From assembly GCA_900317715.1 (NCBI GenBank), contig ONHS01000021.1, positions 1 through 64,000 on the forward strand: a stretch of 64,000 nucleotides of DNA, written 5' to 3'. The stretch comes from an uncultured Bacteroidales bacterium. Lineage in GTDB: Bacteria > Bacteroidota > Bacteroidia > Bacteroidales > WCHB1-69. The position numbers and the translations under genes are program-made. Positions 5,309-62,801 of this stretch are shown piece after piece (positions within the stretch are counted from its first letter, which is position 1; each line of letters begins with the position of its first letter). The notes beneath the pieces are model-generated. The model ran no database searches. It was not told where the DNA came from and saw only the letters and a program-made list of their open reading frames with translations.

Positions 5309-5330
5309 ATCTTTTTTATTGTTACTTACA

Positions 5331-5382
5331 GGGTTAATGGTTGAATGGTTAATGGTTTAAGGTTTATAGTTTAGAGGTTAGG
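5331..5382. repeat. TTAATGG/TTTAAGG-type low-complexity tract at the ftsA stop
   Basis: Tandem short words (TTAATGG, TTTAAGG, TTTAGAGG and variants) fill the ftsA-ftsZ gap, and the ftsA stop codon (5378-5380) lies inside the tract. The same kind of tract recurs at 32570-32622 and, in the other orientation, at 55488-55549. It sits inside an apparent operon, which argues against a strong terminator role here. Confidence 0.75.
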
Positions 5383-12186: not shown

Positions 12187-12214
12187 GAGGCATGTCGAAA
12201 GGCATGCCTCTTTT
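12187..12214 (+). terminator. terminator after the peptide transporter
   Basis: GAGGCATG and CATGCCTC form a perfect 8-bp stem with an 8-base loop, followed by TTTT, 27 bases after the transporter stop. Confidence 0.75.
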
Positions 12215-12286
12215 GCTGTTGGCTGTTGGCTATTGGCTATTGGCAATGCTAACAGCTAAAAGCTAACAGCCAATAGCTAATAGCCG
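12215..12286. repeat. palindromic GGCTATTGGC-family repeat
   Basis: Tandem 6-9-base words (GGCTGTT, GGCTATT) run into their own reverse complement (AACAGCC, AATAGCC), giving a long imperfect hairpin. The same family occurs at 38325-38366, 39011-39076, 50192-50255 and 55427-55459. Confidence 0.85.
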
Positions 12287-12333: not shown

Positions 12334-13302
12334 ATGAAGAAAATATTAGGAATCGGGAATGCACTGGTTGACATTCTGGTGCATATTGACAATGACGACA
12401 TCCTCAACCGTTTAGGTTTGCAAAAAGGCGGTATGGAAATGATTGACGCTCAGCGGAAACGCGAGATTTTGGAACTCATCGCGAAGATGCCGCAGACCAT
12501 CGCCACCGGCGGCTCCACCTCCAACACCATCCACGGTCTGGCTCGACTGGGCGCAAAGGCCGGCTACATCGGCAAAGTGGGCAATGATGAGATGGGCCGA
12601 CTCTTCCGCGAAGGCTGCACCCGCTTCGGCGTAATCCCTCATCTTATTGAATCAGAAGAAGATACGGGTGTCGCCATCACGTTCATCTCCCCCAATGCAG
12701 AACGCACTTTCGCCACCTACCTCGGTGCCGCCGCCACCATGCAGCCCGAACAAGTGGATGCGCAAATCTTTGATAATTACGACATTATCCATATCGAAGG
12801 CTACCTCATCTTTAACCACGACCTGATTCTCGAGGTTTGTAAGAAAGCCAAAGAACACGGATTACAGATTTCCATGGATATGGCCAGCTACAACCTGATA
12901 GAGAGCAACTTGGATTTCGTGACGATGCTGCTGCGCGACTATGTCGATATCATCTTCGCCAACGAGGAAGAGGCAAAAGCATTTACCGGCGTGGAACAAG
13001 TGGAAGCGCTTCACGCTCTGTCCGAATACTGTCCCATCGCCATTGTGAAGGTTGGCAAGGACGGTTCCTATATCAAGATGAACGGCGAGGAGACCGCCAT
13101 CGAACCTGTGGATGCGCAACGCATAGACACCACCGGCGCAGGCGACATCTACGCATCTGGATTCCTCTACGGCTATATGAACGACTACGATGCCTTGAAA
13201 TCTGGCAATCTAGCCTCCTATTTGTCCGCAAGATTGATCGAATATGTCGGTGCCAAATTGCCCGATGAAGAATGGGCAAAAATAAAAGAAGAGGAGCTTT
13301 AA
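12334..13302 (+). CDS. PfkB/ribokinase-family kinase, adenosine-kinase-like
   Basis: A 322-residue cytoplasmic sugar or nucleoside kinase. It shows the N-terminal substrate motif GIGNALVDILVHID, an internal GGSTSNTIHGLARLG glycine pair, and the C-terminal anion-hole signature DTTGAGDIYASGF (Asp265 to Asp271, the last being the catalytic base). Close relatives in Bacteroidetes are usually named adenosine kinase, but the substrate cannot be read from sequence. The frame is open to 12301, but the ATG at 12334 is the first good start after the promoter. Confidence 0.88.
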   Translation: MKKILGIGNALVDILVHIDNDDILNRLGLQKGGMEMIDAQRKREILELIAKMPQTIATGGSTSNTIHGLARLGAKAGYIGKVGNDEMGRLFREGCTRFGVIPHLIESEEDTGVAITFISPNAERTFATYLGAAATMQPEQVDAQIFDNYDIIHIEGYLIFNHDLILEVCKKAKEHGLQISMDMASYNLIESNLDFVTMLLRDYVDIIFANEEEAKAFTGVEQVEALHALSEYCPIAIVKVGKDGSYIKMNGEETAIEPVDAQRIDTTGAGDIYASGFLYGYMNDYDALKSGNLASYLSARLIEYVGAKLPDEEWAKIKEEEL

Positions 13303-25177: not shown

Positions 25178-25286
25178 CAATAATTCATAATTCATAATGC
25201 ATAATTCATAATGCATAATTCATAATGCATAATCAAGGCTAACAGCCAAAGGCCAACTACTAACTACTAACTGCTAACTACTAACT
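25178..25286. repeat. CATAATTCATAATG tandem array followed by TAACTACTAACTGC tract
   Basis: About four units of a roughly 14-base word built from ATAATTCATA and ATAATGCATA run directly after the gldG stop. Then come an AACAGCC/GGCCAAC word and a TAACTACTAACTGC tract that contains the xylE stop codon at 25281-25283. The last part is the same family as 26868-26944 and 62738-62801. Confidence 0.85.
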
Positions 25287-26852: not shown

Positions 26853-26867
26853 ACAAAAAAATGCTTT

Positions 26868-26944
26868 TGGCAGTTAGCAGTTAGCAGTTAGCAGTTAGTA
26901 GTTAGCAGTTGGCTGTTGCCTTTTGCCTATTGCCTATTGCCTTA
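26868..26944. repeat. AGTTAGC tandem repeat and TTGCCTA tail downstream of FISUMP copy A
   Basis: About seven AGTTAGC/AGTTAGT words are followed by GTTGCC, TTTTGCC and TATTGCC words. The reverse complement of this tract lies directly after the terminator of FISUMP copy B (62738-62801), so it belongs to the duplicated unit. Confidence 0.85.
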
Positions 26945-31722: not shown

Positions 31723-31809
31723 CCGTGTAACCGTTAACCATTATTCCTAGGGCTCGCTACTCTCACCCTAGGCTAACATAGGTCGTTTTGGAATAAATAT
31801 TAACCGTTA
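31720..31809. repeat. CCTAGGG palindrome element flanked by TAACCG repeats
   Basis: The tract starts at the stop codon of the FemAB-like gene (TAACCGTGTAACCGTTAACC) and ends at the stop of the convergent LutA-like gene (TTAACCGTTA). In its centre, arms CCTAGGG (31746-31752) and CCCTAGG (31766-31772) form a hairpin. The core, GCCTAGGGTGAG then GCGAGCCCTAGGA on the minus strand, recurs at 57781-57811. Confidence 0.85.
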
Positions 31810-32562: not shown

Positions 32563-32569
32563 TGTTTGG

Positions 32570-32653
32570 TTTAAGGTTTATAGTTTATGGTTTAGGGGTT
32601 AGACGGTTAAACGGTTAGTCTTATCATCATCTTTTCACACGTCACACGTCTTA
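32570..32653. repeat. TTTAAGG/GGTTAG tract and ACACGTC words after the ribonucleotide reductase
   Basis: From the nrdJ stop (32651-32653) reading leftward there is GACGTGTGACGTGTG, then tandem TAACCGTTTAACCG and CTATAAACCTTAAACC words. Related to the tracts at 5331-5382 and 10050-10132. Confidence 0.75.
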
Positions 32654-38324: not shown

Positions 38325-38366
38325 GCCAACAGCCAAAAGCTAACAGCTAACAGCCAAAAGCCAACC
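38325..38366. repeat. AACAGCC/AAAAGCC repeat after uridine kinase
   Basis: Tandem GCCAACA, GCCAAAA and GCTAACA words begin 2-3 bases after the udk stop. GGCTATTGGC family, one arm only. Confidence 0.8.
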
Positions 38367-38368
38367 TT

Positions 38369-38986
38369 CTATCGTTTCGAATTCAATGTTTCTCTGATTT
38401 TAGCAGTGAGAATGTCTATACCGATGTTGTTTTGACCGCCGACTGGAATAATGATGTCTGCCAGCCGTTTGGTGGGCTCGATGAACAGCTCATGCATGGG
38501 TTTGACGAAATTGCGGTAGTGTCGGATGGATTTGTCGAGACCGCGACCGCGTTCAATGACATCGCGACTGATAATGCGGATCAAGCGTTCGTCGGCGTCG
38601 GTATCCACAAACACTTTAATGTCCATCGTGTCACAGAGTTCGGGATTGGTGAAGATAAGGATGCCCTCCACAATCAACACATCGGCGGGTTGCACAGGGA
38701 TGGTTTCCGTGCCGCGCGCGCAGGTGACATACGAGTAGGTGGGCATCTGGATGGTCTTGCCTTCCTTGAGCTGGTTGATGTGATCCACCAGCAAAGGAAA
38801 TTCAATGGCGGATGGATGGTCGAAGTTGATCTTCTCTTTCTCCGCTTGCGGGAGATCGCCATTGTCGCGATAATATGCATCCTGCGACAGCACACTGACG
38901 TGGTTTTTGGGGAATTGGTTGACAATTTTCTGCACCACTGAGGTTTTCCCGGAGCCGGATCCGCCGGCAATGCCTAATACTAGCAT
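38369..38986 (-). CDS. udk: uridine kinase
   Basis: Phosphorylates uridine and cytidine for pyrimidine salvage. The 205 residues start with the P-loop GIAGGSGSGKTS (GGSGSGKT at 8-15). They continue with SQDAYYRDNGDL and NFDHPSAIEFPLL, then LIVEGILIFTNPELCD and DTDADERLIRIISRD, all typical of Udk. Stands between two repeat blocks with no operon partner. Confidence 0.95.
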   Translation of the reverse strand: MLVLGIAGGSGSGKTSVVQKIVNQFPKNHVSVLSQDAYYRDNGDLPQAEKEKINFDHPSAIEFPLLVDHINQLKEGKTIQMPTYSYVTCARGTETIPVQPADVLIVEGILIFTNPELCDTMDIKVFVDTDADERLIRIISRDVIERGRGLDKSIRHYRNFVKPMHELFIEPTKRLADIIIPVGGQNNIGIDILTAKIRETLNSKR

Positions 38987-39010
38987 GATGGTCGATTTTG
39001 GTTTAACATT

Positions 39011-39076
39011 TTGGCTTTTGGCCTTTAGCTATTGGCTTTTGGCTAATAGCCAATAGCTAACAGCCAATAGCCAAAA
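39011..39076. repeat. long palindromic GGCTATTGGC-family repeat
   Basis: The left half (TTGGCTTTTGGCCTTTAGC onward) and the reverse complement of the right half match at most positions over about 33 bases, giving a long imperfect hairpin between udk and tRNA-Gln. Confidence 0.85.
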
Positions 39077-50191: not shown

Positions 50192-50255
50192 ATGTTAGCT
50201 GTTAGCTTTTGGCTTTTGGCTAATAGCTAATAGCCAAAAGCCAACAGCCAATAGC
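50192..50255. repeat. long palindromic GGCTATTGGC-family repeat
   Basis: TTAGCTGTTAGC and TTTTGGC words run into their reverse complement (GCCAAAAGCCAACAGCC), forming an imperfect hairpin of about 30-base arms. It begins 3-4 bases after the TetR-like gene's stop (minus strand). Confidence 0.85.
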
Positions 50256-50258
50256 GGA

Positions 50259-50807
50259 TTACGCGAAGGGCGTTTCCATAAACAGGTCCATGCCACGTTC
50301 GGTCAAGGCGGGATGAAGAAGATAGCGCATTATCTGAGGTTTTTGATCTTTATCAGAATCAATCAAAAACAAATTGTTCAGTAAATAGGGGGTGTAGGTC
50401 TCCAAATCCAAGTCTTCATGAATGTGAAAACAATGTTTCCCTTTTTCTAAAACGGAATAAATCAGGCTATAGAAAATGGAGTCTCTTTCGAGATATTTGC
50501 GCTTTTCCTTCGTGAATGCATAATAGTGGGGCTCTTCGTATCGAGTCCTCACAATTTGATATATGGTCATCGTCAATTCTTCGACACTATGATTGCAGTT
50601 ATCGAGAATGCTCTGCCATTTCTCTCTGCAGATATTTTGCCAATGCTTCCAAGAGATTTCAATGGAGTTGGCTTTAGTACCATAACGATTGAAAAACGTT
50701 TTGTGACAGATGTTTAGCTCTTTCACAATTTGTTCGGTCGAATTCTGAAAACCGTTTTTCGAATAGTAATTGAATAGTACTTGTTTCTTTTTTTCGGATA
50801 GAGGCAT
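50259..50807 (-). CDS. TetR-like transcriptional regulator
   Basis: A 182-residue helical protein. The N terminus has a TetR-style helix-turn-helix: STEQIVKELNICHKTFFNRYGTKANSIEISWKHW (about 23-56), preceded by an alpha-1 helix VLFNYYSKNGFQ. The C-terminal part would be the ligand/dimer domain. Target unknown; the upstream neighbour on the same strand is the MauE/thioredoxin gene. Confidence 0.7.
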   Translation of the reverse strand: MPLSEKKKQVLFNYYSKNGFQNSTEQIVKELNICHKTFFNRYGTKANSIEISWKHWQNICREKWQSILDNCNHSVEELTMTIYQIVRTRYEEPHYYAFTKEKRKYLERDSIFYSLIYSVLEKGKHCFHIHEDLDLETYTPYLLNNLFLIDSDKDQKPQIMRYLLHPALTERGMDLFMETPFA

Positions 50808-54118: not shown

Positions 54119-55414
54119 TTAATAACAAATCACTTTTCTCGTGATTTTCAGACCTTTCCCGTTATGGAGTACCACTAAATACATGCCCTTGGGGAAAGGA
54201 AACGGGTAGGTCAAACGGTGTGTGCCGGCATCCAACTCCTCAGAATGTCGAGCAATACAGTGCCCATCCATCGCAAAAATGGCGACATCATAATGACCGC
54301 CTTCTTCGTTCTGCATATCAATGAGCAACTCGTCGCGAACAGGATTAGCCACGTTTATCAGCACATTTGACGGGTATTCGGGTACACCCACATGGGCATC
54401 GACAACCATATCCATTATAACGGGTAGATGGTCGGATTGCTGATAAAGCGCGTTTGCAACATTACTCGGAATGGAATTGTTCGAAGGGGAGACAATAGAG
54501 CCGTTGAAGCGCATACCGTCTTGACCCAAAGCATGATACGATCCATCTACAATGTGTATTTTGTTGCTACCGTAATAGACAGGAGGTGATACGAGAATGA
54601 AGTCGAATCGGTCATCTAACCCACCTGAGGAGAAACAGTCAGCATCCTGAGAATGAGTGGATTGCGTGTGCAATGAAGCGAATAGCGCATTGTTATGCCA
54701 GCGGCCGGGTCTGTCAATAGGGTCATAAAAGCGGTACAGACTGTTGGGATACTGTGTAAGTTCTTGATAAGCAGCTTCTTCGCTGTCATAAATATTGAAA
54801 TCGCCGGAGAAAAATGTGTTACCAGGGTCGCCCAGTTGGGTGAGTTTGTTCATCAACCGTTGCACTTGCGTCAGACGGGCACTCGCGTCGGAAGAGTAGG
54901 AACCCGCTTTCAGATGTGCAATCCAAAAGGTCATGAACACGGTGTCACCAGATGACAAATTGTCAGCATTGTAGTAAAATTTGTAACCGTTGATGTCGCG
55001 ATAGGAAGTAGTGATGGTTTGGGTGCTGTACAAGGTCAGTTTGCGGGAATCATAATAGATCATGTTGGCGATGTAACCACCTGATAAACTGGTCAATGGA
55101 CCTCGTTTATAATAGGTGATGCCGTTGGTGTTGATGACATTGTTCAACAAACGGTCGGCATATTGGTTCTGAGATCCCAACTCACATACGCAGAGCACGT
55201 CGGGCTTCGCGTACTGGAAGATGGTCCTGAGGTGCGTGTCTTTATTGTCCAGATTATTGGTTGTGCTGTTGCAATCTGATATGCCGGAAGTATTGGTGTA
55301 GTTCATCAGGTTGTATTGCATCATACGGATGGTGTCGCGCGATTGCGCACAAGCAACCCCTGCCGCCATCAACAGCAGCATCCACACCCCAGCTATGTAC
55401 ATGCACTTTTTCAT
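54119..55414 (-). CDS. secreted endonuclease/exonuclease/phosphatase-fold enzyme with type IX sorting domain
   Basis: 431 residues with a signal peptide ending GVACAQ. The catalytic fold shows MMQYNLMNYTN, VCELGSQNQ (metal-binding Glu), FFSGDFNIYD (catalytic Asp-Asn) and QSDHLPVIMDM (Asp-His pair). It therefore cuts nucleic acids or phosphodiesters outside the cell. The C-terminal 75 residues (NVLINVANPVRDELLIDM then FPKGMYLVVLHNGKGLKITRKVI) form a type IX sorting domain. Like the C10 protease, it is a probable PorQ-dependent surface or secreted protein. Confidence 0.87.
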   Translation of the reverse strand: MKKCMYIAGVWMLLLMAAGVACAQSRDTIRMMQYNLMNYTNTSGISDCNSTTNNLDNKDTHLRTIFQYAKPDVLCVCELGSQNQYADRLLNNVINTNGITYYKRGPLTSLSGGYIANMIYYDSRKLTLYSTQTITTSYRDINGYKFYYNADNLSSGDTVFMTFWIAHLKAGSYSSDASARLTQVQRLMNKLTQLGDPGNTFFSGDFNIYDSEEAAYQELTQYPNSLYRFYDPIDRPGRWHNNALFASLHTQSTHSQDADCFSSGGLDDRFDFILVSPPVYYGSNKIHIVDGSYHALGQDGMRFNGSIVSPSNNSIPSNVANALYQQSDHLPVIMDMVVDAHVGVPEYPSNVLINVANPVRDELLIDMQNEEGGHYDVAIFAMDGHCIARHSEELDAGTHRLTYPFPFPKGMYLVVLHNGKGLKITRKVICY

Positions 55415-55426
55415 ATTACTTTTGGA

Positions 55427-55459
55427 TTTTGGCTATTAGCTATTGGCTATTGGCAATTA
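55427..55459. repeat. GGCTATT repeat, short copy
   Basis: Words GGCTATTA, GCTATT, GGCTATTGGC in a 33-base tract just upstream of the nuclease gene; same family as 39011-39076. Confidence 0.75.
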
Positions 55460-55487: not shown

Positions 55488-55549
55488 ACTCTAAACCTTA
55501 AACCCTAAACTCTAAACCTTAAACCCTAAACCAATTAACCTTTTAACCT
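55488..55549. repeat. AAACCCTAA/AAACCTTAA tandem tract
   Basis: Words CTCTAAACCTTAAACC, repeated twice, then CTAAACC and TTAACC. Telomere-like in appearance, but it is the reverse-orientation relative of the tracts at 5331-5382 and 32570-32622. Confidence 0.8.
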
Positions 55550-62737: not shown

Positions 62738-62801
62738 TTAAAAGGCAATAGGCAAAAGGCAACTGCTAACTGCTAACTGCTAACTACTAACTGCTAACTG
62801 C
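62738..62801. repeat. GGCAATA/GCTAACT tandem tract shared with copy A, invading the purD end
   Basis: Words AGGCAATAGGCAAAAGGCAA are followed by about six CTGCTAA/CTACTAA words. It is the reverse complement of 26868-26944. The purD stop codon (62794-62796) is inside this tract. Confidence 0.88.

Follow-up and report, generated by a model that had tools for sequence, protein, structure and literature searches.

Rehm et al. (2015) described tandem heptamers of the words GGGAATC in Xanthomonas and GGGGA(C/T)T in Nostoc (PMC4692102). The Xanthomonas repeats are intergenic, have fixed and free positions (GGGANTN), make convergent pairs, 70 in one species and 75 in another (Nostoc has few pairs), and are nearly always closer to their 5' ORF (28 nt) than to the following one (160 nt); between sister species the length of the repeat differs at the same genes (PMC4692102). 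MacGregor (2015) reported direct repeats of TAACTGA in Beggiatoaceae, Cyanobacteria and some Bacteroidetes (PMC4679880). In the trnL intron of Nostoc, degenerate heptamers (TDNGATT and NNTGAGT) make up both arms of the P6b stem (PMC4476775). Polymerase slippage was proposed as the source of bacterial heptamer repeats (PMC4679880, PMC4692102), and both papers quote the idea of Mrazek (2007) that the polymerase has a 7-nt preference in slippage.

The window analysed here, a stretch of 64,000 nucleotides, corresponds to contig C78 in a draft genome of 3.14 Mb (138 contigs), from a genus of uncultured, mostly ruminant-gut Bacteroidales. The named contigs with the nearest relatives of its uridine-kinase-family protein are from uncultured Bacteroidales, many of them labelled rumen, abomasum, omasum, reticulum or faeces. 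The original prediction placed long palindromes at 12215-12286, 39011-39076 and 50192-50255, and single arms at 38325-38366 and 55427-55459. All of them are present (the second single arm at 55420-55454), and the elements are real, intergenic and occur both as single arms and as pairs. Behind the five stands one tandem heptamer, YDTTRGC (reverse complement GCYAAHR); each palindrome arm consists of 28-35 nt of clean tandem units, TDTTRGC, or GCYAAHA on the other strand. Against an expectation of 0.09, GGCTATTGGC is found 4 times in the window, and none of 100 dinucleotide shuffles reached that count. The many other heptamer spellings in the window (Table 1), as well as the fixed order of the arms and the free positions of the unit, had gone unmentioned in the original prediction. 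ORFs are greedy calls of at least 80 codons rather than the output of a gene finder.

Table 1. Heptamer arrays of the window with their immediate surroundings; a dot marks arrays to which no strand was assigned.
Feature	Position	Strand	Setting
5' arm, TDTTRGC x4	12217-12244	+	between terminator-like hairpin and PfkB-family gene 12334-13302
3' arm of 12217 pair, GCYAAHA x5 on + strand (TDTTRGC on -)	12248-12282	-	3-nt centre AAT
5' arm, five units, one imperfect	39009-39043	+	just upstream of the start of the uridine-kinase-family gene (38369-38986, - strand)
3' arm of 39009 pair, GCYAAHA x5 on + strand	39042-39076	-	one GC common to both arms, 7-nt phase kept
5' arm, TDTTRGC x4	50193-50220	+	convergent pair
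3' arm of 50193 pair, GCYAAHA x5 on + strand	50219-50253	-	one GC common; 5 nt from stop codon of gene 50259-50807 (- strand)
Single arm, GCYAAHA x6 on + strand, last unit imperfect	38325-38366	-	at most 9 nt from stop codon of the uridine-kinase-family gene
Single arm, TDTTRGC x5, first unit imperfect	55420-55454	+	upstream of the start of gene 54119-55414 (- strand)
Other-spelling array, CYYTAAA on + strand	55488-55532	-	same gap as 55420-55454, convergent to it
Array, AAAAGGC passing into AACTRCT	62740-62801	-	
Array, TTAGCAG passing into TTGCCTA in phase	26867-26942	+	
Two arrays, ATAATKC and AACTRCT	25180-25286	.	
Degenerate AGGTTTA-type array	5330-5381	.	present in the sister species too
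GGTTTAW-type array	32568-32602	+	missing from the sister species

YDTTRGC is one heptamer word among many in this genome. In an unselected sample of 194 kb (the window and contigs C74 and C83, not picked by heptamers) we counted 43 arrays of period 7, at most one for each period from 3 to 11, five for period 12 and one for period 13; periods 14 and 15 gave 32 and 3. The spellings include AACTRCT, CHYTAAA, TCAHAMG, AATTHWT and AGGSART, and often one runs into another in phase, while in some other spellings the same unit is repeated many times over, as in TTTGAAC x7 of stretch L041. The YDTTRGC core GCYAAHAGCYAAHAGCYAA has 404 matches in the genome versus 0 for the reversed control. A larger sample of 749 kb from the same genome was partly picked by YDTTRGC-family matches; only 3 of 123 arms of the family lie inside ORFs. 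The CYYTAAA array of the window, which reads TTTARRG in reverse, is telomere-like in wording, and the sister species has a far shorter gap at this place.

The arms follow a strict order, in which the TDTTRGC arm always comes before the GCYAAHA arm. Genome-wide, 101 pattern matches have this order versus 0 reversed (the matches overlap and come from fewer sites), in the 749 kb sample there are 31 pairs versus 0, and a search for the reversed order in the genomes of the genus found none in 40 of 40. The same direction holds when arrays of all spellings are given a sign, defined as G+T minus A+C and with arrays of skew below 0.1 omitted. Among neighbours at most 100 bp apart, plus is followed by minus 51 times, so that the G/T-rich strands face each other, and minus by plus 0 times, with 24 of the scored pairs having the same sign; whole gaps hold 45 convergent pairs versus one of the opposite order, and whole gaps without any YDTTRGC-family member show 16 versus 0. 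In the relatives, neighbouring arrays within 100 bp were convergent in 4 cases versus 0.

Direction is also tied to the genes on either side, in that arrays tend to begin beside a gene and face into the gap. For 165 of 224 arrays the closer ORF is the one on the 5' side of the G/T-rich strand (median 12 versus 85 nt), and among the YDTTRGC-family arms with a stop codon on that side 38 of 62 begin no more than 25 nt from it, these distances omitting 6 edge arms and the 3 arms within ORFs. Array-free gaps have only a slight G/T bias. In tallies that leave out arrays whose two ORF distances differ by less than 30 nt, gaps with a single array near stop codons keep the rule 41 times and break it 21 times, and those near start codons do not follow it (14 versus 14). 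The 7-nt phase is kept across the centre in 21 of 31 pairs, in 12 of which the arms have one GC in common. The bases flanking this GC are palindromic in 6 of the 12 centres, which is chance level. In many cases the upstream ORF seems to end in the TAG of a TTAGC unit; the 7-nt phase that this implies is kept by 26 of the 62 distances (-13, -6, 1, 8, 15, 22, 29).

Set beside the Xanthomonas GGGAATC repeats, the arrays of this genome have the same 7-nt intergenic unit, fixed and free positions, convergent pairs and nearness to the 5' ORF, as far as the available text of PMC4692102 describes them, and we are highly confident that they belong to one class of polar heptamer arrays akin to those of Xanthomonas. 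The units of Xanthomonas and Nostoc contain a G-tract of 3-4 and form quadruplexes, whereas YDTTRGC has at most two adjacent Gs; it is thus a variant of the Xanthomonas-type polar repeats and not a member of the G4 type. There, one word was described per genome studied; here many coexist, and pairs fuse in phase over one GC. The TAACTGA repeats are similar in being intergenic heptamer arrays, patchy across phyla, with 7-nt steps between close strains, but differ in their near-invariant word, their position mostly just upstream of start codons and their single indirect repeat, and the available text of that paper states no convergent rule (PMC4679880). YDTTRGC itself is not the TAACTGA word, and the spelling TAACTGC/TAACTAC found here is one base away from it. 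The heptamers of the Nostoc trnL intron also make both arms of a stem, but at one intron locus, whereas YDTTRGC is a dispersed intergenic family (PMC4476775). Relative to the available text of this heptamer literature, what is new is that one rule covers many words of a single genome, that unit order is random and that the arms are independent. That another word, in Xanthomonas, is described as following the same direction rule suggests a process shared between distant phyla.

We put the probability at roughly 40% that the palindromes, rather than being a hairpin family in their own right, mark the special situation of two polar arrays in one and the same heptamer spelling, each grown directionally, meeting from opposite sides of a gap. 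Convergence, gene-side starts, in-phase centres and independent arms fit growth from each side of the gap followed by joining. As a mechanism we tentatively prefer growth at DNA 3' ends, with a confidence that falls short of even. Arrays would start beside a gene and extend one way into the intergenic gap, with breaks or stalled forks as the places where the 3' end of the G/T-rich strand is lengthened; two extended ends would then be joined, often over a common GC, and the single-arm form would be a gap extended from one side only. An inexact writer that adds units would account for the random wording better than copying would. Against repeated break-and-join stands the lone gap pair of the order minus then plus among the whole gaps, since such a process should give more of them, and the GC overlap available for end joining is 2 nt only.

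Telomeres have a G/T-rich 3' strand. DRT10 makes tandem-repeat DNA by repeat addition (PMC12632851). Unlike the products of DRT10, as the available text of that paper presents them, or of telomerase, the arrays are internal. A search of the draft genome with one reverse transcriptase model found no RVT_1 match at E<=0.001, and a search of the same genome for Ku found none, so that no enzyme can be named; RVT_1 matches were found in 9 of 40 genomes of the genus. On these searches of the draft genome, a telomerase-like reverse transcriptase and Ku end joining were set aside. A more far-reaching version of growth at 3' ends, that breaks between genes are healed by telomere-like heptamers, some activity adding G/T-rich words with two loose positions whose tails are joined over the common GC, seems to us decidedly unlikely. 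If it were true, the convergent arrays here and in Xanthomonas would be fossil joints, each recording a break.

The wording of the units bears on how the arrays grew. Among units standing between two good ones, T3, T4, G6 and C7 are invariant in all 31 from the unselected stretches and in at least 192 of 196 from the whole sample; position 2 takes A, G or T, position 5 is mostly A or G, and the two are mutually independent (p 0.79). Neighbouring units do not resemble each other more than shuffled ones do (0.172 versus 0.160), whereas simulated duplication arrays reach 0.36-0.78, in a test that covered ten unit definitions in this genome and one in other species and to which a power simulation was added. 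Adjacency alone is blind to multi-unit copying from two founders, but such arrays would be 0.47-0.52 uniform versus the 0.17 observed. Distinct units are slightly fewer than in random draws (286 versus 306.6, sd 7.1). Ordered unit words common to arrays or repeated within them were not found beyond the level of shuffling, and copy-and-paste spread of whole arrays was rejected on this ground. In the 13 in-phase hairpins, unit matches from arm to arm numbered 8 of 45 at position 2 versus 31% by permutation among sites, and 17 of 45 at position 5 versus 44%. Since the arms match no better than permuted ones, neither arm is a recent copy of its partner, and the template switching that the original prediction had proposed is not borne out. 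In another word, AGTTAGY (34 arrays, L034 to L047), identical neighbours are at 0.355 versus 0.455 shuffled, as if C and T alternate.

The original prediction also suggested that the arrays may grow by slippage, which in its simple form does not agree with the low likeness of neighbouring units. A fuller version, in which replication slippage with a 7-nt polymerase preference is followed by mutation and the direction rule arises from selection beside start and stop codons, we consider possible though improbable. It would account for the excess of period 7 over all periods from 3 to 13 in the unselected stretches, for array length and wording that differ in the same gaps between sister species, and for the runs of identical units in other spellings. 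However, duplication models are far more uniform than the YDTTRGC arrays, array-free gaps are almost without G/T bias, and the 51 versus 0 convergent order is left without an account. Neither one direction rule for many unrelated words, with no divergent neighbours within 100 bp, nor random unit order combined with strictly fixed and free positions in the best-sampled word is predicted by slippage.

Comparison with the sister species G032, which aligns over most of the window at mostly 85-93% identity, shows how the sites differ. Among the five YDTTRGC sites, a short array stands at 12212 in this species, 39009 and 50193 each show a remnant of one unit, and 38324 and 55414 are empty. In the 39009 gap the more distant G027 and G017 hold convergent pairs of other length and wording, and in the 38324 gap G027 has a different word. 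As these more distant genomes have arrays where the sister keeps a remnant only, some of the arrays are of older date or have been lost, instead of being new creations. The gaps are thus hot places in which arrays are gained, lost and changed in word.

The family reaches well beyond these species. Matches were found in 35 of 60 related genomes, made up of the own genome, 31 of the 35 further members of the genus (at most 324 each) and, outside the genus, 3 of 24 genomes of other families (1 to 3 each). An even draw across the phylum gave matches in 32 of 392 genomes, again including the own one, with the reversed control mostly at 0, and up to 65 matches in one genome of another class. Five distant genomes (20 stretches, GC 43-64%) share the unit, with positions 3, 4, 6 and 7 fixed in 35 of 35 middle units, position 2 being A, G or T and position 5 A or G; these stretches were picked by the pattern, and the fixed bases are therefore partly ascertained. 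The order-level comparison, 20 stretches from 20 other families (two of them, L183 and L190, read GC 0.00), is too small for rates. Neither the YDTTRGC family nor, for Bacteroidota, the direction rule was found described in the open-licence literature. One genome of another class, G206, has ten heptamer arrays in 20 kb (L260, 5229-19236), and its YDTTRGC-family matches are one-stranded (12 forward, 0 reverse genome-wide), unlike the convergent ones of the own genome.

Such recurrence in distant families of the phylum, together with the contrast of four invariant bases and two free ones and with the in-phase centres, could be read as a sign of putative protein-binding sites, in which TT and GC of every unit are contacted and the pairs are the arrangement that a dimer or filament prefers, much as in paired REP units. 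We regard this as unlikely, because many unrelated words under one direction rule are not explicable by one protein, and most of the sites in the window are missing from the sister species.

REPs are intergenic palindromes that occur singly and in pairs and have a conserved body of 20-40 bp. The arrays resemble a REP/RAYT system in being intergenic palindromes, single and paired, in a genome with RAYT-type genes, but they have no conserved palindrome body. The search for a RAYT-type transposase that the original prediction called for did yield two Y1_Tnp genes, and such genes are present in 36 of 40 genomes of the genus; each of the two, however, is flanked by a palindrome other than the heptamer one, GGGTGGAGCGCAGCGACACCC in two exact copies around C83:2206 and a related one around C74:21765. 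The RAYT-type genes thus seem to come with an element family of their own. Heptamer matches were zero in 3 of 3 scanned genus genomes without Y1_Tnp versus 1 of 33 with it (Fisher p 0.0006, which ignores kinship and genome size), and small or incomplete genomes may be the cause of their absence from the former. Among the genomes with Y1_Tnp, gene copy number and heptamer count were not clearly correlated (rho 0.25, p 0.15), and the count also tracks genome size (rho 0.45). RAYT was rejected as the agent in view of the separate flanking palindromes, while the presence/absence association remains; that the arrays are REP-like elements moved by a Y1_Tnp transposase is, also given the random order of their units, extremely improbable. 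A REP-like palindrome in the window, CCTAGGGCTCGCTACTCTCACCCTAGG at 31746-31772, resembles those flanking the Y1_Tnp genes, and others of REP-like type lie at 1928-1948 and 2664-2684 of L044 and at 1478-1504 and 2252-2279 of L041.

RNA folding of each copy, another check put forward, separated the two forms. Folding energies are -42.4, -41.8 and -35.0 kcal/mol for the three palindromes, with z scores of -6.4, -6.9 and -8.0, and the two single arms stay at the level of shuffled sequence (z -0.03 and -1.03). The original prediction held that the hairpins could be transcription terminators or protectors of RNA ends, for which the stability of the three palindromes and the many arms that begin close to a stop codon might speak. 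But U-tracts are nearly absent, a T-rich stretch following the hairpin on 2 of 50 sides; swapped arms fold like native ones (-10.19 versus -9.98 kcal/mol), the native arms being above the median in 11 of 22 cases; single arms have no fold; and arm pairs are also present in divergent gaps. Predicted folding and the U-tract count give no support to a role in termination or RNA protection, which we consider very unlikely. Probably the arrays are by-products that the genome tolerates and that change leaders, trailers and spacing. In the gap downstream of the uridine-kinase-family gene in stretch L093, from a relative, octamer-like repeats, CCGTGTAA and CCCTATAA, replace the heptamers.
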